64,000 nucleotides of DNA from Fragilariopsis cylindrus CCMP1102. Lineage: Eukaryota; Bacillariophyta; Bacillariophyceae; Bacillariales; Bacillariaceae. Within the stretch, counting starts at the first letter, position 1. Each line of letters begins with the position of its first letter. Shown here piece after piece: positions 17,340 through 44,759 of the stretch. The stretch lies in NCBI GenBank assembly GCA_900095095.1, contig FMBT01000359.1, forward strand, positions 177,671 through 241,670, given 5' to 3'. The notes below the pieces were generated by a model. It ran no database searches and was not told the DNA's origin. It saw only the letters and a program-made list of their open reading frames with translations. Position numbers and translations under genes: made by a program.

Positions 17340-17795
17340 TTGTTGCGAATTTTGTTGCGTGTGATATTTGAGCTCCGATTCTGCATATCTGATCACCTAT
17401 ACTATGTCCTGCCATCTTACAACATGCACATTGTTTCTTGTTGCGTAGGGAGTATCTTGGGTTCCCTTCCTCGAGTATCCATTCTCTTTTGGTTTGCCAT
17501 CGAATGTGTTGATCGACAAGGTGTTGATCTTGTTATTAGATGTGTTGGGGTAATCTGCAAATAGGTCTGCCAGACCTGTTGTCTTCCAAGTGTTGGGGAG
17601 GGGTTTATTTGGATGTGTGAGGATCCATTGGTTGAAGTCTCCGCTCAATTTCGTCGCAATTGACGTATTGTAAGATTGAAGTGCTTGGTGGAGCATTTCT
17701 TGTGATTGTTGAACTTCCGAGTATTTGGTGTTATGCCTCATTTCATGAGTTGCTACGATGTTTGTAGTTCTACTACATATGCACTTGGGGGTCAT
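17340..17795 (-). pseudogene. gag C-terminal region with variant zinc knuckle, out of frame
   Basis: Continues gag in other frames beyond the stop at 17,773. At 17,430-17,383 a frame reads CACCKMAGHSIGDQIC, spaced CX2CX4HX6C instead of the usual CX2CX4HX4C, as expected for a nucleocapsid-type RNA-binding knuckle. Two frame changes separate it from the long gag ORF (near 17,780 and near 17,435). They could be programmed, decayed or erroneous. Confidence 0.6.
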
Positions 17796-20460
17796 TGTTT
17801 TTGGTCCAAGTTGGTCCCCATCCTTGTGTGGTAGGTTTCATGAACGCACATGTCCTTCTCATGATGGCATATAGTGCTCCGTACCCATTGCGTTCCTCAT
17901 CGAATGGACTGATTATGTCCAGCATCGCCAGGTTTGTAATTGGTATAATGACCTTAAGTCTTCTCATGATTGCATGGCTGATGGTGGAGATGGTATTATC
18001 CGTTTCATTGTGCATTGGTGGTAGGCATGATCCTGTCGGTGATAGGTGCTTTAGTTTGGTGAGTGGGTATGTCTCTATGAGGCAGTCATCATACATCTCG
18101 TTGTACAGTTGTTTTGCTTGATCCATCGTTACTATCGTCTTTGCTGGGATACAATGTTTGTGCATTTGCATGGTGCCAAACCTTGTTATCGATTTTGAGA
18201 TGTGTCCCAATCTCTTAGTCTCTGCCAGCGCTGCTTCCTCTGCCTGTCGGGCTTTTCGTGCTGCTTGATCCTGTTGAAATCTTCTGTTTGCCCCAGGAAA
18301 TAGACCGGTATACGTTCCTGTATCTCCTGTCCCTGTATCACTCTCACTCATTTTTTCGTTGTACGATTTCTCTTCCTCTACTGTTGGGTCCTCCGTGTCG
18401 GTTGTGCTTGGCATTTCCTTTCCTATGTTGGTTTGTGTCCAATCTGTTGCTTTGTCTACGTTGGTATGCATCCACTCCGTCGCGATTCGATCCACTTCTC
18501 TCTCAAGATTGTTGGTGATATCTCCTACATTGGTATTCATCCATTTCGTCGCAATCCCATCGATTTCTCCCTCAAGTTGGCCTGTGATATGTCCTATATC
18601 CGATACTGAGGATGCTACCCCTCTGATATAATGGTCGATTGTATCATTGTCTTTGAAAAAGTCCTTTGTAAATTCCATCAGCGAATCTGACATTTCTTGT
18701 GGGAATGTTTTGATGTAGGCTTTGATTTGGTTCTGGATGATCTGTCGAAAATCGGGTCCGTCGACTAGGGATGTTATTGCTGCCTCCGATTGGTTTTCTA
18801 TCATTGATAATGTAATGACCAAGTCATCCGTTGCTTTCTTGGTGAACTCTGCTAGTTCTGTCTTGGTTGCAATGGACTGTGTTCGATTTTCCACGATGAT
18901 ATTTTTCCGGCTTTCCTTATTAATTGACCTTGCCATATCACTCAGTCCTAGAATGGAGCTATCACTTGCTGATTTGATTCGTACTATGGCATCTTTCAGT
19001 GCTGTTTTGATTCTCGTTGGATCTAGTTCCTCTGGGGACCATTGGAGATCTTGTGCTAAGGCATCCTTGTGGTTTTGGAGATCTTGTACTAGTGCATCCG
19101 TGTGGTCAGTTAACTTCTGTGCTAGTTTCTTTGCACCCAATCGCATGGCTACTGCTTCTCCTGCCGTTAGTTGTCTGGATGTTGTTATGAGTTGCATGGC
19201 TACTTGTGCTGCTTCCAGATGATCTGCAAGAACTGATGTGGCCGTGTCCACTTCTGCAATTGTTGTGGTTGCTTCATCGATTCGGTTTGTGACTTCATCT
19301 ATCTTTGAGGTGAGTTCCAAAAGTTTTGATTCAGCATCTTGTAACATCATTTTTGTTATTCTCATTTGATTACCCGCACTTTCTTCCATTCGCATCATTC
19401 GGGTGATGGAATCAAGGTGTTCTTGGGTGTTTCTTACTTCCATTTCCTTGTATCTCACTTCCATCTTTCTATTCATCATTTCTTCCATCCTCTTATCGAT
19501 CATATCTTCTAAGTCTATGCTACTACGGGATCCAAGTCTACTACTATCGTTGTTACTATCCGTTCCAAGTACACTGGGGGTGTGGTTACTATCATTTAGT
19601 ACCTCACTTTTGGTCTCCTCTTGTACTTGTAAGTATTCCTCTTCCTGTTGTTCTAGTCTATCGATTGTATCATCCATTTCTTCCTTTGTATCATCCATTT
19701 CTTCCTTTACCGTATCATCATCTAATTCCTCTTCCTTCTCTACTTCTGATTCTTCTGCTTCCGAATCGAATAGTGATGATATGTTTTGCACTTCTTTTGG
19801 CAGTTTCTGTGGTGACTTCGAATTTGCCAGGCGCTGCTTTGCTTTGTATCGAGAGGTGTTTCTTCCATCTCTTTCTCTTGCTCGCTTGGCTCTCTGCTTG
19901 GCTTGCTTCACTGTCCATGCACTTCCGGTGTCACTGGAGTCAAGTTCAGTTTCCTCTGCTAATTCCTTCAAAAGTTGTATCTGTGGTGGTGATTCAACGA
20001 TTCGAGGTGCTTTACCTCTTCTCTCATACTGTGGCTCCGATTGATGTAGGATAGTATGAAGTGGTTGGGCGTAGTGGTATCTGCTTCTTGGTGTCCATGT
20101 CGGTGGGGTCCATGCATGTTGTGTGCTAAACATTTGCTTTATCAAGTTTTCGATGGCGATATACTTTTGGTCTACATCCATCTCTTCATCGTGTAATGTG
20201 ACAAGGTGTGCATGGTGATCCGATTCTTCATACCTTGTCATTGGCATGAAGGGTTTTATCTTGTATGGGTCATCCTTGTAAGGATTGCTGTCGTTCAGGG
20301 GAAAAACTAGCTTTAGTGCTTCGATCTCCTCCTCTTTGATTCCATCATAGGGGATGAAATCAGTAGGTATTGTCCTACCACCCCTCGGTGGTGACATTGG
20401 CATTGTGTCCAATGTACTTGTCTGCATCTTACCTGACTTTCTTGAGTTCTTCTTCGCCAT
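17773..20460 (-). CDS. Large gag-like structural protein of copy B
   Basis: 895 residues, starting MAKKNSRKSGKM at the first ATG after the leader; the same start is kept in copy A. Residues ~190-330 are highly charged, with a KEEMDD repeat pair. Residues ~330-560 and ~600-720 are predicted coiled coil (many E, K, Q and I heptads), followed by a Gly/Thr-rich linker and a C-terminal region with several His and Cys. No catalytic domain is visible. Position and charge fit a capsid protein, although it is much longer than a typical copia gag. Confidence 0.8.
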   Translation of the reverse strand: MAKKNSRKSGKMQTSTLDTMPMSPPRGGRTIPTDFIPYDGIKEEEIEALKLVFPLNDSNPYKDDPYKIKPFMPMTRYEESDHHAHLVTLHDEEMDVDQKYIAIENLIKQMFSTQHAWTPPTWTPRSRYHYAQPLHTILHQSEPQYERRGKAPRIVESPPQIQLLKELAEETELDSSDTGSAWTVKQAKQRAKRARERDGRNTSRYKAKQRLANSKSPQKLPKEVQNISSLFDSEAEESEVEKEEELDDDTVKEEMDDTKEEMDDTIDRLEQQEEEYLQVQEETKSEVLNDSNHTPSVLGTDSNNDSSRLGSRSSIDLEDMIDKRMEEMMNRKMEVRYKEMEVRNTQEHLDSITRMMRMEESAGNQMRITKMMLQDAESKLLELTSKIDEVTNRIDEATTTIAEVDTATSVLADHLEAAQVAMQLITTSRQLTAGEAVAMRLGAKKLAQKLTDHTDALVQDLQNHKDALAQDLQWSPEELDPTRIKTALKDAIVRIKSASDSSILGLSDMARSINKESRKNIIVENRTQSIATKTELAEFTKKATDDLVITLSMIENQSEAAITSLVDGPDFRQIIQNQIKAYIKTFPQEMSDSLMEFTKDFFKDNDTIDHYIRGVASSVSDIGHITGQLEGEIDGIATKWMNTNVGDITNNLEREVDRIATEWMHTNVDKATDWTQTNIGKEMPSTTDTEDPTVEEEKSYNEKMSESDTGTGDTGTYTGLFPGANRRFQQDQAARKARQAEEAALAETKRLGHISKSITRFGTMQMHKHCIPAKTIVTMDQAKQLYNEMYDDCLIETYPLTKLKHLSPTGSCLPPMHNETDNTISTISHAIMRRLKVIIPITNLAMLDIISPFDEERNGYGALYAIMRRTCAFMKPTTQGWGPTWTKNNDPQVHM

Positions 20461-20692
20461 GGTACAAGTGTTGTAGAAATTTGTTGTGCTTTTATTTATT
20501 ATTTAAGCGATTTTTGCAATTTTAATTCAACGCACGCGCTGTTTTGTATGCTTTTGGTACAGTTTTTACGTGCACGAAACTTGTTTCGTAAGAATCTATC
20601 ACCGATGTTGCTAATATCGATGTTACGTCGTTGTTGCTAATAACGAAACCCTGTTTTAACTTTAATTATATTATCTTTTAACAGTGATAAAA

Positions 20693-23853: not shown

Positions 23854-25692
23854 ATGAATTTCTGTCGAGTATGTTTTTCTGCATTGGCTGTTGTTGCAAC
23901 CGCTAGTGCATTTCAGCAACGGTAAGTTCGAACTTTAATCTGAATTTGAATTCGATCATTGTTTAGTTTTATATTTGCTATTTACTATTTAGTATTTCCC
24001 CATTATGTGTCTCTCATACGAATTGTTGATTTTGTATTTAAATGCTTTAACGAACGGCGATGCTTGAAACAACTTAATTAAACAACGCAACAACGAATAG
24101 ATAAAAAAACACACAACAAATTTGAAATTTATATACAGTTCCAGTGTCAATATCCCACCCACGTCGCTGTCGTCGTCTTCAATTACAACACCAGCAGTTG
24201 CTACAGACAAATATGTCGATAAAATTTCAGAACAAAATCCTCTAAGGTATTAATTGCGGGAGCTGGAGTTGGTGGGTTGGCATTGGCTACATCACTTTCA
24301 AAGAATCCTAATATGGATGTGACGGTTTTAGAAAAAACAGATAAATTTAAAAGATTTGGTGGACCTATCCAACTTGCTAGTAACGCATTACGTGTCCTTA
24401 ATGAAATGGACGAAGACGTTTATAATCAAATTATGGAAAAATTTACCTTCACGGGTGATAAAGAAAATGGTATCAAAGATGGTATCCGAACTGAATGGTA
24501 TGCAAAATTTGATTTAGCAAGTCCAGCTGAGGCACGGGGGATGCCATACACGGGTGTCATCGAACGACCCGACCTACAGGAAATTTATCTCAAGCATCTC
24601 CAAAAGATACGGTACGGAACGGTCATGGTATTGATACGTACACTACCGATAGTGAAACCGGTCAAGTAACAGTAGAATTAGATAATGGAGAAAAAGTTAC
24701 CGGAGATGTTCTTATCGGTGCCGATGGGATCTGGTCTTCCGTACGGGCAACAATGCACGACCGACCCGCGAAAGGGGAAGAATCGGGGGCGTCTTATTCG
24801 GGATATACTGTCTTCGCTGGAGAATTGAATTACGATTCTCCCGATGCTGGTCAAGTTGGTTACAAGGTATACATCGGACCTCAACAATACTTTGTTATTA
24901 CCGATATTGGAAATGGTCGGTATCAATGGTATGCCTTCTTGGCTCGAGCACCAGGATCTGTAAGCGATCCAAAACCCGATGGATCATCGAGTTACCTCCA
25001 AGATCTTTTCACTGGATGGTCGCCTGAAATTTTTGCAATCTTAACAGTTACACAAGAAGATGAGATTCAACAACGTGATTTGTATGATCGACCACCTAGT
25101 GTATTCAAACCATGGACGGAGGGTCATGTGGCTTTACTCGGTGATGGAATCCATGCAATGATGCCCAATTTAGGACAGGGGGTGTCAAGCAATTGAAGAT
25201 TCATTTGTTATCGCACAAGAATTATCAAGCGCAACGACACGAAAAGAAGTTACGAAGAAATTAAACAGCTACGCACAACGTAGACAGATCCGATCAGCAG
25301 CCGTCCAAGGTCTATCGCGATTTGCTTCTGATATTATCATACGAGGATTTGATACACCTGCCAAAATAACATGGAAGGATAACAAACCTACATTCGAAAA
25401 TTGCAACTACGCTGGTATTGTTACAAGAATGTTACAACCTATCCTTCCAATCTTCTTTAAGGTTCAGTTCAACTTTTTGTATGATGGATGGGAGAATAAA
25501 TTCGGTATCGATGTAATTTCTGCAATTGGTTTCCTAACGATTGGAGGACTAATACTTCTTCTCAGTGCAGGTGTTGTTGGTGAAGCTGGAATCGTCGGGG
25601 CTTTCGGTTTTGAGGCTTTCCTTGGTACCGAAGGTGTACTGGACTTCGAGGCTATTAACACTTTCATGAGAGAGCTTCTGAATTTTACATAG
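23854..25692 (+). CDS. ZEP: Zeaxanthin epoxidase
   Basis: FAD monooxygenase that re-epoxidises xanthophylls in the plastid, opposing VDE. Exon 1 (23,854-23,921) encodes a signal peptide ending TASAF; the intron is 23,922-24,138 (GTAAGT...TACAG). Exon 2 continues through a transit region to the FAD-binding GAGVGGLALATSL, a DVLIGADGIWSSVR motif and LLGDGIHAMMPNLGQG. A C-terminal hydrophobic segment (about 25,500-25,610) may anchor it. Three single-base losses break the frame: at 24,243-24,248 (before VLIAGAG), at about 24,600 (C run), and in the G run 25,178-25,182. Each is repaired by one more base of the same homopolymer or of the adjacent A/G run, which suggests sequence error. Diatoms have several ZEP paralogues; the VDE neighbour suggests the one called ZEP3, from memory. 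Confidence 0.92.
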
Positions 25693-26315: not shown

Positions 26316-27224
26316 CTATCGCACTAGATAAAGTCTCGACTTTGAGAGGATCGTCGGTGTTATATTTCCCGTTAAGGATGTTGACAATGGGTCACCACCA
26401 GCCATCTCATACACGATTTCGATCCCTTCAAGTGTTGATTCATCCACCTGCTTCCATTTAGAAACTATCCGTCTAGCGGAAATCAATGGTATTCCTCCGC
26501 GCTCTTCTTGTGTTATCCGTTGGAATTCTGACGATGAGACCGTATCTACGGTTCTTTCCGTAGCACGTTTCGTTACCTTGATTTCTTTCTTTGTACCATC
26601 CGATAACACAAGTCTCAAATCATTAGGATTACTCTGTACCCACTCATAGGAAATTTTAGGTGAATTTGTCGATGGAGCGGTTGTTGAGCTACTTTCTTCG
26701 CCGTCTTCCTTTCTTCCTCTTTGGACAGTCCGAACTAATGCGGTTTCTAACTCAGCTTGATTATAACCACGATCTGCGACAACAGCATCGTCTTCAATCG
26801 ATCGTATGAACCGAATAGGATACATCAAACGAAGAACCGACGAGGATGAAGATGAAGAAGGGTTGTTGTTGTTGTTGAACTCCACCTCACGTGTCATTTT
26901 CCAATTCCCTGCAAACAATTCGGGGTAGAAAACATCTTGTTTCCCATACCCTGGTATATTAGCAGCGGATCGTCGAACTGCTTCTCCCGCATCTAATGGC
27001 GCAGCTGCCATTGAAACGCTTGGATTCATGAAACTCAAAACTTCTGCAGCGACTAATGATGTTCCAACAGTCGTTGCGAAAGTTTTTCGTCGTGTCATCA
27101 TTACTGGATCATTAGGATGTAGTGCGCTTCTGCTGGTCCAGGCAAAGATAGTTTCCTTCCTAGAAAAGAAGAAGAGGGAACAAAAGATGCGCAACGCTAA
27201 CAATGACTTCATCACTAATTTCAT
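26316..27224 (-). CDS. DUF6816-like thylakoid lumen protein
   Basis: 302 residues, one exon. The N-terminus looks like a signal peptide (about 1-28) plus plastid transit. A twin-arginine TRRKTF (residues 44-49), a hydrophobic stretch and an AxA-type site near residue 73 (SMAAAP) follow, as in Tat-imported lumen proteins. The core has AGNWKMTREVEF, YPIRFIRSIEDDAVVADRGYNQ, the segment NPNDLRLVLSDG, SSSEFQRITQE, ISARRIVSKW and LEGIEIVYEMAGGDP. This pattern is what I recall for the DUF6816 family of cyanobacteria and plastids. Molecular function unknown. Family assignment is from memory of the motif pattern. Confidence 0.75.
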   Translation of the reverse strand: MKLVMKSLLALRIFCSLFFFSRKETIFAWTSRSALHPNDPVMMTRRKTFATTVGTSLVAAEVLSFMNPSVSMAAAPLDAGEAVRRSAANIPGYGKQDVFYPELFAGNWKMTREVEFNNNNNPSSSSSSSVLRLMYPIRFIRSIEDDAVVADRGYNQAELETALVRTVQRGRKEDGEESSSTTAPSTNSPKISYEWVQSNPNDLRLVLSDGTKKEIKVTKRATERTVDTVSSSEFQRITQEERGGIPLISARRIVSKWKQVDESTLEGIEIVYEMAGGDPLSTSLTGNITPTILSKSRLYLVR

Positions 27225-27464
27225 TACGGTATGCTTTTAAGTAATATATATTATGTTGATGGATTGATTCGTCTCATTCATCACAAAACTTTTGTGATTT
27301 GTGTTTTTCGTGTACTTATTTAAAAGTCGCCAGTCGTGTATTCATTATTTGATATTGGGCGGCGAAATTCTTACTTCGCCGCGATATTGAATATTTGATT
27401 CTTTACTTCAAGTAACTATTCTTGATATTTATCTTTCACTTGTGTGTTTTATGTTTTATGATCC

Positions 27465-29203
27465 ATGCTTCGATGCGAACCGAAGATTAATCACAGGAAA
27501 CAGGAACCACAAGGTGAATGCACCTCACAAGCCACAGGAATCAAGAAGGACCAAGCTACCAAAGCAAAGGAACACCCGGTATCGAGACATATAATGGCGA
27601 TAGAAAAATATCTGGTAGCGTTGACCGTAGTCGGTATCGTTGACGCGATATCGTACATGGTTGTCACACCGTCACTTGTGTTTTACGTTTTAGAAAATGG
27701 TGGTACAAAAGATCAGTACGGTCTAATAATGTCATCATTTAGCTTTGCTTCGTTTTGTACCAAACCCATCATCGGATTCTGTAGTGACCATTTTGGGTTT
27801 CGTGCACCATTTGTGATTTCGCTGTTGATCGCACTATTGGGTGGGGTGGTATACATGTTCGCGTCCGCTTTACCCAGCGGCAACGTCGCCGTCGGTGCTA
27901 TTTTTGCGGCAAGATTATTGGGTGGAGTTGGTGGAGCGAATAGTGCCCTGGGCTACGCGTACACAGCTCGAACTATTCCTCCAGAAAAACAAACATCAGT
28001 AAACTCTCTTTTATCACTTTGTCGTATACTTGGAATGGCTATTGGTCCAGGAGTGAATATTTTTATTGCGAAGGTCGATATTCCTATTGGAAATAAATGG
28101 GGTCTCAACAGTCTTAATTCAGTTGGACTGATACTCGTCATTTGTAACATAATAGCAATTGCTTCGGTTCTACTTCTTCTGGAGGAGCCTCAGAAGAAGG
28201 ATGAAGGTGGTGTTGAGGGAAAGGAGGCAGGAGATGACGAGACACCGAAGCTCGACGACAGCGTTTCATCGTCGTCTCCCTCCAGGGCCTGGAATGACAT
28301 ATTACTTTCCTTTTTTTCTGTTGACATTTTAGTTCCGATGCTTAGCATTTTTTCTTTCAATGCAAGTTTTCAACTCATTGAAACCGGCTTTGCACCAGCT
28401 GCATTCGATGCTTTGGGATGGGGTCCAGTTCAAAGTTCGATGGCTCTTGGGTCGATATCATTTGTTATTGCCTTCAATATGTTCAGTAAGTAATTCATTT
28501 TTCGCACACTCGTGATACTTAATGATTTTTCTCATAGCAAAAGTTGCGGCTGTACTCAAACAAATACATTACTTTTCTCTATTTTTTATTCCAAGATGTT
28601 ATGCAATTGAGCAAACGTGGTGTCTCAGATTCTGACATGATGTGCGGAGGATTAATTTTATCTATAGTGGGCTATTCTTCATTATATCTTATGTGGACAC
28701 AAAATGCCTCCGTATTGCAGTTTTATATTCCTATTCTCCTCGGAGCATCGTGCTTTCCGTTCCTGGCTGCTCCGACGAGGAGTATTTTTACTGTTGCGGT
28801 TAATGCAAAACCGGCTCTAAGCAAATATCACGGTTTGATGCAGTCTATTTTAAGTATGGGTGCATCGGTGGCAGGTTTTGTAACTCCCGGCATTGTAGCA
28901 GCGTTTTGTTTAAGACATCCCGACGTTGTCGCTGCGTCTCGTGATCATCGAGAGCTTTCACCTTTGAGTTTGTTCGCCCCAGGACTTTCTGCGCTGGTGT
29001 TGTTTGGTATGTTGTATTTACGCGTATCCGGTAAAATAAGTAACAAGAAAGATGATGGAGAAGGGACTATGACCGAATCTTCATCTCTACTTCCAGGCCA
29101 TAATGATATTGCTGCTCGACGAGACTCAGCCTTGGAAATGTTAATGGAAAAAGACTACGAAGGATTTAGTGGGATGGTTGACAATATTTCAGTAAGAGAG
29201 TAG
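27465..29203 (+). CDS. Major facilitator superfamily transporter (MFSD8/CLN7-like)
   Basis: Two exons joined by an intron at 28,486-28,595 (GTAAGT...CCAAG), giving about 545 residues. About 12 hydrophobic helices are visible. MFS loop motifs: IIGFCSDHFGFRAPF between helices 2 and 3, and ARLLGGVGGANSALGYAY in helices 4-5. A long charged cytosolic loop (about 28,190-28,290) separates the two six-helix halves. The C-terminal tail carries SSSLLPG-type dileucine residues, which fits sorting to an endomembrane. Substrate unknown; the MFSD8-like label is by general resemblance. The first ATG (27,465) gives a basic 43-residue extension; MAIEKYLVAL at about 27,594 is an alternative start. Confidence 0.8.
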
Positions 29204-38260: not shown

Positions 38261-41200
38261 ATGAGCGATCCTATCAACGGAAACCAAAACCGTAGGACCT
38301 GCGTTATCCTTTTGGATCTACAAAACGAGTTTGCAAAACCAGGAGGGAAACTGCATGACACCGTTGCCGATAGCATACAACAAAATGGAATGTTAGAAAA
38401 AGTCCCTAAGCTGGTCGAGATCGCTCGAGCGAAAGGCTCTCTCATTATTCACTCTCCCGGTAAGATAATAATAAAAAAAAGAAATAGTATATCAGTTTTT
38501 ACAGTTGTCGTATTTTTATGTATATGTACTGTAATTGTGTACATTGGAGTGAAAATAATGTGAGTTGTATGACAGTCACATGAAATGGTATCGAAGTGGT
38601 TCGTTCGATCAAAGCAAAAGTATCAGATTATCAATCTTTTTCCTTCTTATTTATATTTTTTTTTTCATGTCATCTTATCAAACATATGTACTTAGTGATC
38701 ATGAAGACTGATGCCCGCTTCATGGAAAACGATTTCGATCCTCATGCATATTCGTCAATGGACGGTCTTTTCGTTGAAGACACTTGGAACGCCCAATTTA
38801 TTGACGAAATCCAACCATTGACTGGGGATGAAATCTTGCGTGGACGAAACGACTTCTGTGCCTTTCAAGGGACCGAACTCCTTACCATACTAATGCGAAA
38901 CAAGATCGATACAGTCGTCATGTGTGGTTTCCTATCAAATGTTTGTATTGAGGAAACGGCAAGTGCCGCTCTGAAGAAGATTCCTCAACTCAAGGTCGTT
39001 GTATGTTCCGACGGATGCGCAGCGAAGACGAAGGAAGATCATGATAACGCTATGACGATGTCACTTCCTGTACACGGCTGCGAGATCATGACATGCTCCG
39101 ATGCGGGTGAGTTGATCAGTATCGAACAACAACCAATCAAAAAGATATCTCGCCAAGAAAGTTCTCGACACCGCCCTCGCATCCTAGCAATGCACGGCGC
39201 TCGGTCCAATGACGATGTCACCAAACTACAGTTGGAGAACTTGGGGATCACTGACGATGAATACGACATTGTTTATCTAACAGGAGGAGTCGAGGTCAAG
39301 GAAGGCGATCCAGAAATTGCTGACCTCATTCGTGGGCCATACTATTCATGGTTTGAAGATAAAGAGGGTACAGATCTTTGTCGTAGCATCATCTCTGGTG
39401 TTCGTGACATTCTCGAGAGAACTGAGTCCCTTGGTCCATTTGATGGTGTCTACGGCTTCTCGAGTGGTGCAGCAATGGCTGCGTTATCAGCTTGCATCAA
39501 TGTCGATCCCCAACTCCAAGCTGCGATTAAATTATTAGATACAGAGATCGGTACGGAAGGACGCCTCGGTTCAAGTCTATTTCGATCTATGTCTATGGTA
39601 GGAAGGACAAAGTCTTCGAAGAAACGAAAACCCAAAGCGTACTTCGTACATTCTCTCCAAGACTGTTTCTAAGAGCCTTGGTTCGATTGAGACCGGAGAC
39701 ATTGTATTACCTCCCTTCAAATTTGCTATCCTTGCGTGTACGGCAACACCATTCGACGGTGTAGCCGAGCTTCGTCGCCTTGCCGGTCTACCGAAGACGA
39801 GCCTTCCTGAGCACAATGCTTTTTCCGTACCATCCTTCCATATCATCGGTATTGAGGATCAATTTAAAATCCAGTCAGAAGAATTTGCGTCTCTTTTTGC
39901 GAATCGCAAGGTTATGTATATCCCTGGTGGTCATGGTACGTACTAATACGCTATTCGAATGAATAAGATATTGATATGATATTGGTATACATAATGTACA
40001 TTTTTGTTATGAATTATATTGAAACAAGTTCTTTCTCACTTGAAATCTATCTATTGGTTTACTTGTTTCCTCTCAATCTGCACTCTTAGGCATTGGCCGC
40101 GAACAGCGCAAGGACGAGGACCTTAAAAATGAGCTCAAGACTTTTGCCAGGTCCCTTGGATACCCCGCTTCGAAGGTACCCGAGGCAAACTTCAAGCCTA
40201 TGTCTGAAGTATCGAATGTTGCTCTGCTTCCTCATGCCCAGGTCGCGCTTGTGAAGCTCGACAACGCAAAGCTTCCCTATGGCAAAGGAGATGGCTCCAC
40301 CATTGTTTCTATGCTAGCTACATGGCCAGCCGACCGACCTTTCCTCCGCAATAGTCGGATGAAGACGCTAACAATTACACCTCATATGGAGACGCATTAA
40401 ATTCATCCGAGGAGGAAAGGGAGACCTCCGTCGTTTAGGTGTGAAGCATGGCGATGTCGTAGCGTATGGAGCACCCGGTGGGGTGGAGCCGTTCCAGCTC
40501 TAGCCTTTTTATCCATTGGTGCTCAGACTGCGGCTGCACCTTTGGCACCAGGAACCACCGAGCCTGATGCTTTGGATGCGCTCGACCAATTTCAGGCCAC
40601 TCATCTGATTCTTTTCGATGGAGTGAATTGTCCTGGTGTTGAGGCTGCATTTAAACAGTACGCTGAGGCAGGCAAAGGAAAGCTCCATAGGGCAAAATTC
40701 AGTGACAGTGATAAGCCTGGTATCTTCGAATTTGTAAGTGACAATGGACTGGATGGAAAGGAACTCACAAATCCAGAGAAAGGCGTCTGCCTCCTGCTTC
40801 GTACTTCAGGTACTACGGCGCGTCCGAAGGGCGTCCCACTGAATCAGGACGCTCTTGTTAACAACGGTGCTATCCTTGCCGCGAGTATGCAGCTGAGTGA
40901 TACAGATGTCTGCTACAGTGTAATGCCCCTCTTCCATATCGGTGGGATCTCTGCTTCAATTCTTTGTACTCTTGCATCTGGTGGGTCCGTTTGCTGTGAT
41001 GGTGAGTCGTATGATCCTTCTCGTATGATTGACGCCCTTGCCCTATCCCGACCCCAGCCAACCTGGTACAGTTCAGTCCCTACCATTCATAATGCCACCG
41101 TTTCTTTTATTAAGGACTATTCATCGTCTGATCCCAAGTATAAGTCTTATGGTATCGATGCTAATGGCATATGGAAGACAGGGCACTCTCTTCGAATGAT

Positions 41201-44065
41201 CAGATCAGGTGCCGCAGCTTTGCTTGGCCCTGACGGCACCGCCCTTGCTGCGACATACGGAGGAGTGCCTATATACCCGACCTATTCCATGTCCGAACAA
41301 ATGCCCATATCTCAGCCACCGGCAGGTAAAGGAGATACTTTGACTGACAAGCCGGGTTCAGTAGGTGTTCCGGTTGCGGCATCTACAGCAATTGTAAGCC
41401 GAAGCACTCTTAGACCGGTCAAACACGGAGCTGAAGGAGAGATTGCGATCTCTGGTCCTACAGTTCTAACAAATTATCTGAAGAACCCAGACGCCGATAG
41501 AAAGTCATACTTCGACTTGACGCTCGATATAGGCAGTGGCATCATGGGTGACATTACCAAAGGTGGGCGTTACTTCCTAACCGGGGACGTTGGTATGATT
41601 GATAGTGATGGATTCTTGAGCCTCAAGGGTCGTGCTAAGGAGCTGGTAAGTGGAACTGTTTGTCTTCTATACAATTTGTGATCCGTTAAGCTTTTTCAAT
41701 TCTATCGGCATCAGTAAATAAACTACGAAACTACTGTGTATCATGTATCATACTACTAAGAAGTCTTGTAACTACTTATAACTGACACCCATTTGGTCAC
41801 ATTATCACTTATTTCCTCCATTATGACAAAAAAATAGATCAAAAAAGGAGGAGAGCAAGTTTCGCCATTTGAGGTAGAAGAACCTCTTCTGGAGCATCCT
41901 TGGGTGAAGCTCCCTGTCTGCTTTTCTGTTCCATCAAATCTTTACGGTGAGGAAGTAGGTTGCGCTTTAGTCCTCTCATCACAAGTCCCCGCTGGTACAG
42001 GCCAACGGGAGATTGTTTCGGCCATGAGAGCGTGGCTAAAGGAAGCCAAACTGGCCCCTGTCAAGTGGCCTACCAAATGGATTATTGTTAACGACGAAGA
42101 CTTGCCAAAGACAAAGACCAAGAAGTATATTCGTGTCGGCTTAAGCACGGTACTTGGCCTCGATCCCGTGGAAGAAACATCCACCAAGCTCACCTCAAAG
42201 GAATCGACCAAGGCAAAAATTGACTGGGCCTGCCTCGGCGGCTTCCGTTTTATTCTTGCGTGTTATGTCATGTTCATGCACATCGGATCCACTGTGTCCT
42301 GGGGTAGGATGAGCAATCTCAGAGAAATGCCTTGGCACGTCCATGTCTTCTTCTCTCTGGGAGGCTACTCGATGGCATCGCCTATGAATCCTGTTATCAA
42401 GAAAAAGTTCGGGTACTTCAAGGTATGTATGAACGGGTGTCTTAGTGAAAAATCAGAAGATCACGTTCAATTTGTCTGTGAAATAGAAGCATTATCCATG
42501 TCCCATGCATTTTCTCTGAATCTATCCTCAATTTTGTTTACTGGCATACGAGGCATAAACGTTATTTTCCTTAAATTTTCCACGAAATTCGCAGTTCACT
42601 CATCTTTTCCTTCTTTTTCCCGTTATGTTATATCCAGGCGAGAATTATGGCAATGTACCCTATGTATGCCATTGCACTCATTGCTGGCTTGATCAACCTT
42701 CTCGTTGTCTGTAGACCGAGCACGTTTGATCCAAACTTTACCTACAACTCTCAACCGGATGACCTTGACAGAGGCTTCTTCTGCGAGGGTACACCCGCTA
42801 CACCGACATCCTATTGGGGCAGTCTAGTCCTCACCATTATCACGTATATCTTCGGATTGGCTATTACGCCAACATTTTTAGTCTCGTGGTGGTTAGGATA
42901 CTACCTCTGGTTTAGTAGTATGTATTACCACTGCCTCGCAATCTTCCCCAGTGCGTACAATTTATTCTTCAACAGGATGCGGAAGAAGACTCGTCCGTTA
43001 ATCATGGTAATCATTTCTCTTTTGCTTCTTAATGTTGCCATTCTTTTGGCTGGGTGGTTTATCATGAAGGATGCTCCGCCATACGAGGACGGAGATTATG
43101 AAACTTCCAAGGATTGGAATATCGGTATTCTTAGCTTTTACTTGTTTTCGCCTTTCTGGGCTTTATATTTTGTTATTGGCACCGCCACGGCGTTCCTCTA
43201 TGATGCCTATCGCCCAGCAGAACGTCACAATGCCTGGATTTGGGGTATAGTAGCTGACAGTTGTACCCTCGTTATGATTGCTTTCAGCATTGCCATCCTT
43301 CTACAGGGCAACAGATACCACGGGGTCAATGACAAAGTTGAGTTCTATCTGCGTCCGGATGAAGCCAATCAGCTGACTGATACAGCTTCGGTCAATAGGC
43401 TTTGGAGTGCAATCTATGCACGCATGTTCTGCCCTCTTACTACGCTATGGGTGTTTGCAATTAGTTCCGGGCGTGGCGTAACATGTATGATTTTAAGAAC
43501 AAAAATTCTATCGGAAACTCTGTCTCCCCATGCATATAACTGTTTCCTTTTCCACCAGATGGTCGCACAGTGGTACTTTGCCGCCACGAGGCCTGGTTCT
43601 TTCTGGAATTGGTGGCAGTACAGAAAGGATTTGTATTGGTTTTCTCCTGAACCGTGTCCGGTAGAATGGTACGAATATTTCCTCGTTGTTGGTTTAGTTG
43701 TTGCTTTTTCGAATCTCTGTTTTACTCTCGAGCCACTTGTGGGTAAGGTCATCGATGGGTTCGTCAGTCTAGGGAAATCAGGAAACAAAGATATCGAGGA
43801 GGAAGAAGAGGAAACTACCAAGGTGCTGAAGGACATCATCGAAGGGATGACAGGTATCGAAGCAGAATCAGACTATTCCCTAGAGGAATGTGGCCTCGCA
43901 TCGATAGGAGTGCCAGCTCTAGTCATTATGCTGAACAAGAACTTTTCCAAAGGCAAGCGCCAGGTGACAATTGTTGCTGCAGATCTTGTTGCGGCCGAAA
44001 CAATAGGCGACATGGCCGTAATTATTGATGCAGCAAAGGATCTTGCAGAGCATCAAGGAATCTAG
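38261..44065 (+). CDS. Five-domain hydrolase / adenylation / acyltransferase-3 / carrier protein
   Basis: About 1,670 residues in five exons: 38,261-38,459; 38,696-39,935; 40,090-41,645; 41,838-42,422; 42,638-44,065. All introns are GT-AG and in phase. Domains: (1) isochorismatase-like hydrolase, LLDLQNEF (Asp19) and nucleophile Cys150 in CGFLSNVCIEETA, but GRND where a Lys is usual; (2) FSH1-type serine hydrolase, RILAMHGARSND, GFSSGAA, PGGHG; (3) AMP-forming adenylation domain, TSGTTARPKGV, YSMSEQ, TGDVGMIDSDGF, GRAKEL-IKKGGE and Lys in PKTKTKKYIR; (4) acyltransferase-3 (OafA-like), GFRFILACYVMFMHIG then about nine helices; (5) carrier domain with GLASIG as pantetheine site. Four single-base breaks (near 39,635; 40,350; 40,395; 40,480, the last in a G run) interrupt exons 2-3, but every domain continues. 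Splitting into separate genes is unlikely: introns bridge domains 3-4 and the catalytic loop of domain 2. Confidence 0.82.
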
Positions 44066-44149
44066 AGGGATTTGCGTCGAAGACCCCAGGTTAGTAAAAA
44101 GTAGATGTAAGAATTAAAAGTTAAATCAATACCATTTTGCACTACAAAT

Positions 44150-44524
44150 ACGCTCTACCATCGACCAGGATACGATGGCAGAGACAAGTCAAGTTTTACT
44201 CCTACTCTTGCTGTACCTAGCTCTGTTCCTAATCTTGATCCGAGTGACGCACCAAGTTCTGTTCTTAGTTTCAAACCGAGTTTGTTGCCCAATTCCATCC
44301 CAGGTCTCGGTCAAAGTCTTCCACCTAGTTCAGCGCTAAGTCTTTCGCCGAGCGCTGTACCTAGCTTTGTTCCTAATCTTGATCCGAGTGATGCACCGAG
44401 TTTGGTACCGAGTTTGTCGTCCAGTGCTGTACCAAGTGTCGTGCCCAATTCCATTCCAAATCTTGATCCAAGTCTTCATACCAAGTCTTTTACCTGGCTC
44501 AGTTACATGATTTTAGACGGTTGA
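44150..44524 (+). pseudogene. PSxxPS-repeat relic
   Basis: An open frame of repeated PS-x-x-P units (for example VPSSVPNLDPSDAPSSV, LSPSAVPSFVPNLDPSDAPS) with no ATG or signal peptide. Such repeats are common as linkers in secreted diatom proteins. Probably a fragment left from a longer gene. Confidence 0.55.
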
Positions 44525-44673: not shown

Positions 44674-44759
44674 CGATTCGATTTGATTTGATTTGATTTG
44701 ATTTGATTTGATTCGATTCGATTCGATTTGATTTGATTTGATTTGATTTGATTTGATTC
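44674..44759. repeat. (GATTT)n / (GATTC)n microsatellite
   Basis: Pentanucleotide array of about 17 units with a central GATTC variant block. It is preceded at 44,583-44,655 by an ATC/ATT-rich trinucleotide tract. Confidence 0.9.

Follow-up and report, generated by a model that had tools for sequence, protein, structure and literature searches.

The gene at 38261..44065 on the forward strand of the window (the whole 64-kb stretch of diatom DNA that was analysed) is, judging by its sequence, a eukaryotic member of a rare bacterial protein family that carries an extra isochorismatase-like domain at its N-terminal end. The family joins an FSH1 hydrolase domain, an AMP-forming ligase, an acyltransferase-3 (AT3) domain and a carrier. 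We give a little less than an even chance to the reading that these proteins, which occur here and there among bacteria and, with a cysteine-hydrolase head added, in a eukaryote, are AT3-fold acyltransferases whose donor is a thioester on their own carrier and not acyl-CoA.

Gene structure and domain content of the window copy

The five domains were found on one strand and in the order originally predicted. The features of the gene are the following:

38261..44065, forward strand: whole gene, with ATG at 38261 and TAG at 44063-44065
38261..38459, forward strand: exon 1, which opens the gene and covers the first third of the isochorismatase-like domain, with DLQNEF and the donor GTAAGA
38696..39935, forward strand: exon 2, remaining isochorismatase-like domain and most of FSH1, holding one frame change
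39551..39698, forward strand: stretch where the frame of exon 2 changes, either a candidate fifth intron or an indel
40090..41645, forward strand: exon 3, end of FSH1 and N-terminal domain of the AMP-forming ligase, with TSGTTARPKG, YSMSEQMPISQPP and TGD
40377..40487, forward strand: part of exon 3 with three single-base frame breaks, at about 40377-40385, 40399-40403 and 40477-40487
41838..42422, forward strand: exon 4, AMP-binding_C and TMH1-TMH2 of AT3
42219..43770, forward strand: AT3 domain (approximate limits), with intron 4 inside
42638..44065, forward strand: exon 5, AT3 from TMH3 on and C-terminal carrier, with the TAG stop
43795..44056, forward strand: carrier domain (approximate limits), placed by alignment to bacterial relatives
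43901..43903, forward strand: predicted phosphopantetheine Ser codon (TCG) in ECGLASIG, the Ser being invariant in 8/8 members
38460-38695, 39936-40089, 41646-41837 and 42423-42637, forward strand: four GT-AG introns, placed by splice signals and alignments

Exon 2 also holds the Cys in SNVCIEET, the FSH1 nucleophile in GFSSG and the His in GGH, while exon 4 holds IKKGGEQVSP and the Lys in LPKTKTKKYIR for the ligase, and R-X10-H and FFSLGGYS for AT3. Introns 2-4 agree with the alignment to the bacterial relatives, and intron 1 with the continuity across it of the alignment to the solved isochorismatase 3kl2. Introns had been said to bridge the domain borders, but every border between the five domains falls within an exon; intron 3 separates the two Pfam subdomains of the ligase itself. 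Since no intron stands between any two of the five domains, a single gene can be argued more strongly than before. In the 67.9-Mb assembly of the source organism, the exon-5 part matched only itself, and the ligase and hydrolase pieces each gave five much weaker matches elsewhere.

For the Pfam search, we used the spliced read-through with X at the frame breaks, and matches were listed to 0.1. Of the domain search proposed earlier, Isochorismatase (2e-29), FSH1 (9.7e-23) and AMP-binding (1.4e-40, with AMP-binding_C at 6e-6) were borne out. Acyl_transf_3 (PF01757) reached 21 bits on the exon-4 piece, under its 31-bit cut-off, and gave no match on exon 5 alone nor, at 0.1, on the full spliced read-through, where PP-binding was not matched at 0.1 either; both domains were secured by alignment to the bacterial relatives. 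Run against the whole genome of the diatom, the AT3 model matched five other places, the window gene not being among them.

The isochorismatase-like domain was over the Pfam cut-off. Cysteine hydrolases of this type have an Asp-Lys-Cys triad. When aligned to 3kl2, the closest solved chain of the isochorismatase family, the window copy showed the Asp and the Cys, and an Arg at the Lys site of 3kl2, which we take to be catalytic; in 3kl2, the Asp site is occupied by Glu. The best solved-structure match of the ligase was oxalyl-CoA synthetase, with an E value of 4e-30 for the window copy and 2.5e-56 for the bacterial relative L019, a protein of Pseudomonas sp. AOB-7, and malonyl-CoA synthetases ranked further down. 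That the nearest match is a CoA ligase speaks against an own-carrier donor. The literature on pocket codes gave nothing usable for the ligase substrate.

Frame breaks

The gene had been described without mention of frame breaks, but its frame as assembled is not open. The exon-3 breaks fall within about 110 bp, in a stretch conserved in bacteria. As to exon 2, 14 GT-AG pairs of at least 50 bp would restore the frame, and the pair 39551-39698 both restores it and gives almost the bacterial length, so that a fifth intron could explain this change. A zeaxanthin-epoxidase-like neighbour gene (24223-25692) is frame-broken too, with one break at a G run, and assembly errors therefore seem likelier than decay. 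We consider it improbable that the protein family is real and the window copy a decaying pseudogene: three single-base breaks close together and one further frame change are what such a copy has in its favour, but the motifs are intact over the rest of about 1670 codons, the neighbour points to the assembly, and an intron can account for the exon-2 change. The broken frame, together with the Pfam misses for the carrier (window copy and the relative L015) and for the window-copy AT3, also counts against an own-carrier donor.

Bacterial relatives and their distribution

The FSH1-ligase-AT3-carrier order was detected in seven bacterial genomes (L014-L020). In six it forms one open frame, and in L018 it is split over two overlapping frames; the domains are thus not always separate genes in the homologues, and the prediction of one protein is supported. 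The domain order is not without parallel, as had been thought: four of the five domains make up the bacterial family, and what sets the window copy apart is the isochorismatase head alone. The bacterial proteins, of about 1430 residues, have neither this head nor introns, whereas the window copy has both and carries all four family domains on one chain in the same order, with frame breaks. No isochorismatase domain was found by Pfam in the five bacterial relatives scanned and no matching stretch in all seven, so that, among these eight members, the head was seen only in the window copy.

Identity between the window copy and the bacteria was 42-52% for the ligase, 46-52% for AT3, 28-36% for FSH1 and 26-39% for the carrier; in a second alignment, AT3 and carrier together gave 43-50%. 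The FSH1 (Ser, Asp, His), ligase and carrier Ser motifs are kept in 8/8 members (L018 taken as two pieces), and ECGLAS, GFSxG and YSMSEQMPI are invariant between window copy and bacteria. Among the five relatives scanned with Pfam, AT3 was over the cut-off in all and PP-binding in three, the carrier of L015 having no match. With NCBIfam on three relatives, none of the best 25 of 99-103 matches reached its cut-off.

Viral contigs yielded no relative, and no plasmid record covered 80% of the query at a single place. The best plasmid match (H1) is a ligase that stands alone, next to an ABC transporter. We also searched four genome draws, of 398 (phylum of G006), 386 (phylum of G002), 298 (genus of G006) and 397 genomes (order of G003), with E limits of 1e-100 or 1e-80 and no more than two scored candidates for each genome among the matches listed; the genomes with a match numbered 1, 1, 1 and 2, all of them seeds, and no further member was found in these draws. 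No description of the family was found in the open-licence papers searched, nor is the architecture reported in the passages available from PMC554113. In a tree of the A-domain, the eight members stood apart from three outgroups with a support of only 86/89, the inside of the group being unresolved and the outgroup branches very long; in the full-length tree, the placement of the window copy was weak (61/75). A transfer of the gene between domains of life, in either direction, is suggested by its presence in scattered bacteria and, with introns, in a eukaryote.

A PEBP gene adjoins the family gene at 6/7 bacterial loci. By eye, the N-terminus of its product resembles a secretion signal, and such a neighbour would suit a family product located beyond the cytosol. 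An AraC-type regulator gene lies nearby at five of the seven loci, and a phosphopantetheinyl transferase gene adjoins the family gene in L020, which counts for a carrier donor. Neither PEBP nor AraC-type neighbours had a match within the window, and PEBP had none in the source diatom in a search run without positive control.

Donor-site residues and topology of the AT3 part

We compared the AT3 part of the eight members with 20 stand-alone AT3s; the eight are one family, so their residue counts are not independent. The R-X10-H motif of TMH1 is present in the window copy and 6/7 bacteria (His in 8/8 members, Arg in 7/8, L015 having Gln). In the RxxR motif of TMH3, whose conservation among AT3s is high without being absolute, the first Arg is kept in 8/8 members, while the second is found in none of them versus 18/20 stand-alone AT3s, being Ala in the window copy. 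Likewise, the Ser and Tyr of TMH9 are absent from all members (17/20 and 19/20 in stand-alone AT3s), with Phe at the Tyr site in the window copy. The TMH1-Asp also occurs in 0/8 members, versus 8/20, a difference that is not significant. Given the pattern in RxxR, the AT3 part would be AT3-derived by homology and a donor-site variant. The retained TMH1-Arg (7/8), TMH1-His (8/8) and first RxxR Arg (8/8) are CoA-site residues, and as such they stand against an own-carrier donor.

In simulations of OafB, R74, the second Arg of RxxR, contacts the 3'-phosphate of CoA (PMC9833829). No secure alignment was obtained for the counterparts of OafB K279 and R338. A carrier arm has no 3'-phosphate, so the loss of the second Arg counts for a carrier donor. 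In the passage of PMC12423673 drawn on here, the first RxxR Arg is the only one described as conserved in the majority of the wider TmAT superfamily, whose donor is acyl-CoA, and the TMH9-Ser is described as non-critical in OatA; the loss of the second Arg alone does not, therefore, exclude a CoA donor.

Hydropathy and loop charges agree with an N-in/C-in topology only if one segment is re-entrant, a feature also described for OafB. AF2 modelled exon 5 alone with a mean pLDDT of 41.6, and AT3 plus carrier of L019, from an 8-row alignment, with 49.6; as the AT3 fold was too poorly modelled, only the carrier part was used. In this weak model, the C-terminal segment of L019 (block pLDDT about 53-82) matched a PCP in Foldseek with a probability of 1.00 and a whole-query E value of 0.78, and DltC with probabilities of 0.60 and 0.38. 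The FSH1 part of L019 had no direct PDB sequence match at E 0.01.

Proposed mechanism and alternatives

The logic first proposed, in which an acid is activated, held on the protein's own carrier and handed to the membrane domain, is supported at the level of sequence comparison. We see about an even chance that the ligase loads the C-terminal carrier and that the arm of this carrier feeds AT3 from the cytosol, making the protein a one-chain Dlt analogue with AT3 replacing MBOAT. The ligase, whose motifs are present, would adenylate a small carboxylic acid, which would then be held in thioester linkage by the phosphopantetheine of the carrier, where ECGLAS is invariant. From the topology and the changed CoA-contact residues, ligase and carrier would be cytosolic and the carrier arm, instead of acyl-CoA, would enter the channel of AT3, which would then move the acyl group across the membrane onto an acceptor. 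The FSH1 domain might clear stalled or mis-loaded thioesters, and the acid may be supplied through amide hydrolysis by the isochorismatase-like domain, unless this domain is a degenerate accessory.

A rather unlikely alternative is that the ligase makes acyl-CoA for AT3, the carrier being a buffer, regulator or acceptor. It agrees with the oxalyl-CoA and, further down, malonyl-CoA synthetases as nearest solved ligases, with the CoA-site residues kept in TMH1 and RxxR, and with a review which, in the passages used, favours acyl-CoA over ACP as the physiological donor of AT3s (PMC9558356). Yet the carrier Ser motif is invariant and fused in 8/8 members, in all of which the CoA 3'-phosphate contact and the TMH9 Ser/Tyr are changed. 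As that review favours acyl-CoA, the family offers a direct test of the donor rule: with its own ligase and carrier and a CoA-contact Arg lost, it is a natural one.

The thioester built by ligase and carrier could also be used by AT3 at the cytosolic face on a lipid or small molecule, the protein being a secondary-metabolite or membrane-lipid synthase and not an exporter. Small molecules are substrates of some AT3s, Asm19 among them (same review, in part), and the patchy distribution and nearby AraC regulator resemble a specialised-metabolite locus; nevertheless, the signal-like N-terminus of the PEBP neighbour and the AT3 His, which in the OafB model lies towards the far side, make us regard this release at the cytosolic face as unlikely. 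Far less probable is an EntB/EntE-like aryl-acid unit for a siderophore, with isochorismatase, aryl-adenylating enzyme and carrier. The three activities are identical by name, and the L019 ligase is weakly matched by the DHB-AMP ligase model (89.7 bits) and by solved DHB ligases (E about 1e-21). However, that model is far under its cut-off of 723.55, the ligase is nearer oxalyl-CoA synthetase, in the isochorismatase family the closest solved chain is 3kl2, whose Lys is replaced by Arg in the window copy, and the bacterial relatives have no such head by Pfam (five) or by matching stretch (seven).

Comparison with known systems

Oxalyl-CoA synthetase (AAE3/Pcs60) is a stand-alone CoA ligase, and its pocket motif is YAMTEA, versus YSMSEQMPI in the family ligase. 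With AT3/TmAT proteins (OafB, OatA), the family has in common R-X10-H in TMH1, the first RxxR Arg and Phe...Gly in TMH2; it differs by the fused ligase and carrier and by the loss of the second RxxR Arg and of the TMH9 Ser/Tyr. The fusions named for other AT3/TmAT proteins, in the passages covered, are SGNH, racemase and NRF. Finally, the family shares with Dlt D-alanylation (DltA, DltC, DltB) a ligase, a carrier and a multi-pass membrane transferase. The Dlt system is made of separate proteins and is not known to have an FSH1 domain, whereas the family is one chain. In Dlt, the carrier arm is described as entering the membrane protein (PMC9338922, in part), and DltB belongs to the MBOATs, whose fold differs from that of AT3/TmAT (PMC12423673, in part). 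The transferase is AT3 and not MBOAT in 5/5 relatives scanned, and the family is likened to Dlt without being Dlt itself. If the own-carrier mechanism is true, the Dlt logic would have been built a second time in nature, on a different membrane fold, and the family would provide a one-chain system to study acyl transfer across membranes.

Bacterial relatives of the megaenzyme

We used the ligase of the window megaenzyme as a query in a scan of prokaryote genomes and found seven loci (L014-L020), with 43-52% identity in the best segment, six of which consist of a single open frame of 1410-1435 aa. The locus of Aeromonas popoffii (L018) is made of two overlapping frames. This copy (L018:6897-11328) is split near the ligase A8 motif, with sequencing error and decay as candidate causes. 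Five of the seven relatives were submitted to Pfam: FSH1, AMP-binding, AMP-binding_C and acyltransferase-3 (AT3) were over the cut-off in all five and PP-binding in three, the carrier scoring 19.4 bits against a cut-off of 20.8 in L020 and giving no match in the cyanobacterial MAG locus L015. The isochorismatase domain was absent from these five lists, and only 12-57 residues of this region could be aligned with the bacteria, at 7-25% identity. The original prediction of a domain order without any parallel must be abandoned, since the bacterial family shares FSH1-ligase-AT3-carrier.

Identity between the window copy and the bacteria was 28-36% for FSH1, 42-52% for the ligase, 46-52% for AT3 and 26-39% for the carrier, overlaps of 1-4 residues with one L018 piece being excluded; in a second alignment, AT3 plus carrier gave 43-50%. 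With L018 taken as two pieces, all eight family members, including the window copy, keep the FSH1 motifs (GFSxG, HxIGxxD and a His preceded by GG, AG or GA), the ligase motifs, with the family-specific YSMSEQMPI and a Lys at the A10 site, and the carrier motif ECGLAS. The family is rare. Each of the seven genomes harbors one copy (in two pieces in A. popoffii), and their other matches, among those listed, covered the ligase part only. Further draws, comprising 398, 386, 298 and 397 genomes, yielded no match outside the seed genomes, and no plasmid record reached 80% query coverage.

Structure of the window gene

That one gene encodes five domains was supported in part. Pfam detected Isochorismatase, FSH1, AMP-binding and AMP-binding_C over the cut-off in the spliced read-through, as predicted, while the expected Acyl_transf_3 and PP-binding failed at this level: AT3 reached 21 bits against a cut-off of 31 on the exon-4 piece and was missing from the full read-through (E 0.1), and PP-binding had no match in the spliced protein. 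Likewise, an AT3 scan of the diatom's own genome matched five other places and not this gene. At the sequence level, AT3 and carrier are established by homology to the bacterial relatives. Isochorismatase-type enzymes use an Asp-Lys-Cys catalytic triad; when aligned to the solved structure 3kl2, the head keeps Asp and Cys but has Arg at the usual Lys site, so its activity is doubtful.

The gene (38261-44065) has five exons joined by four GT-AG introns. Introns 2, 3 and 4 sit where the spliced protein aligns without gaps to the bacteria (for instance KEL/IKKGGEQ, the slash marking the join, against KELIKRGGEQ), and at intron 1 it aligns continuously with 3kl2. All borders from one domain to the next fall inside exons, intron 3 lying between the two ligase subdomains. 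The reading frame is broken: it changes once in exon 2, and exon 3 has three single-base breaks inside ~110 bp. The exon-2 change, located in a segment longer than its bacterial counterpart, may be a fifth intron, since the frame is recovered with any of 14 GT-AG pairs no shorter than 50 bp, one of which (39551-39698) results in near-bacterial length. We do not think that an intron removes the exon-3 breaks, because their stretch is conserved in bacteria. Other features of the window were as follows.

1215-2369 and 17773-20502, both - strand: long repeat with ORFs, two copies ~18 kb apart
24223-25692, + strand: FAD monooxygenase gene (FAD_binding_3), presumably zeaxanthin-epoxidase-like, in three overlapping frames
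26316-27236, - strand: DUF6816 protein gene (PF20670, 2.6e-31)
27462-28490: MFS transporter gene
44111-44524, + strand: ORF of repeated PSxxPS/VPS units, directly downstream of the megaenzyme gene

The FAD monooxygenase gene has frame breaks too, one of them at a G run inside a conserved motif, which suggests that indel errors are present in the assembly. We therefore consider assembly errors likelier than decay as the cause of the megaenzyme breaks. In the 67.9-Mb assembly, the exon-5 part matched only itself, and the ligase and hydrolase pieces had five weaker matches each elsewhere. The repeat ORFs share their first 90 residues (MAKKNSRKSGKMQTS...), one copy being open for 909 aa and the other for 384 aa; the repeat is perhaps a mobile element. 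The DUF6816 gene lies between the monooxygenase and transporter genes, and GATTT tandem repeats follow the PSxxPS/VPS ORF near 44680.

Neighborhood of the bacterial genes

A PEBP gene (PF01161) accompanies the megaenzyme in 6/7 loci, directly upstream in L014, L016, L018, L019 and L020 and divergent in L017; its N-terminus is hydrophobic and, judged by eye, resembles a secretion signal. An AraC-type gene is nearby in 5/7 (L014, L016, L018, L019 and, with a lower similarity of 27%, L017), the L020 sequence on that side being <700 bp. PEBP and the AraC-type regulator thus form a conserved module beside the megaenzyme. Near the exception, L015, neither had a match. Further neighbors were as follows.

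L015:1541-3449, + strand: TPP-enzyme-like and carboxymuconolactone-decarboxylase-like genes, upstream of the megaenzyme
L020:11282-11890, - strand: phosphopantetheinyl transferase gene adjoining the megaenzyme, truncated at the sequence end

Within the window, PEBP, AraC-type and phosphopantetheinyl transferase neighbors had no match, and a search of the diatom genome, run without a positive control, gave no PEBP relative.

Topology and donor site of AT3

Over the eight rows, hydropathy and loop charges fit cytosolic N- and C-termini if segment 145-165 of the Pseudomonas AT3 (L019) is re-entrant, as is a loop of OafB; otherwise, one loop violates the positive-inside rule. A structure model was poor apart from its carrier end, which matched PCP in Foldseek (probability 1.00, E 0.78) and, weakly, DltC.

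The eight family AT3s were aligned with 20 stand-alone AT3s, 17 of them from 22 non-family matches (one without locus sequence and four under the cut-off were excluded) and three from five in the diatom genome (two with internal stops were excluded). TMH1-His is present throughout (8/8 and 20/20), TMH1-Arg (Arg or Lys) in 7/8 against 20/20, with Gln in L015, and the first Arg of the RxxR pair in 8/8 against 19/20. The second Arg is lost from the family (0/8 against 18/20, the remaining two being Lys and His), as are TMH9-Ser (0/8 against 17/20) and TMH9-Tyr (0/8, all Phe, against 19/20); the difference at TMH1-Asp (0/8 against 8/20) is not significant. Fisher values for this comparison are too small, since relatives were treated as independent.

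A carrier arm bears no 3'-phosphate. In the OafB simulations described in PMC9833829, the CoA 3'-phosphate is held by the second Arg (R74) in concert with R14, K279 and R338. On the other hand, as PMC12423673 describes the acyl-CoA-using TmAT superfamily, only the first RxxR Arg is conserved in most members and TMH9-Ser is non-critical in OatA, and both points count against reading the residue losses as the mark of a carrier donor. The original prediction was that the protein loads and transfers an acyl group as a self-contained system; we give roughly even chances to the AT3 donor being the acyl group on the tethered carrier.

Comparison with known systems

The nearest solved ligases include enzymes for oxalate, malonate and 4-coumarate, and FSH1 would act as an editing thioesterase. 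Our literature search, among open-licence papers, found no description of the FSH1-ligase-AT3-carrier family. A bacterial family in place of an unprecedented order is about as interesting and lends itself better to testing. A review of AT3 proteins, in its discussion of the donor, argues for acyl-CoA and against ACP (PMC9558356), and the bacterial family may break this rule. The D-alanylation (Dlt) pathway has the same parts as the megaenzyme, and there, as PMC9338922 reports, the arm of the carrier reaches into the membrane transferase.
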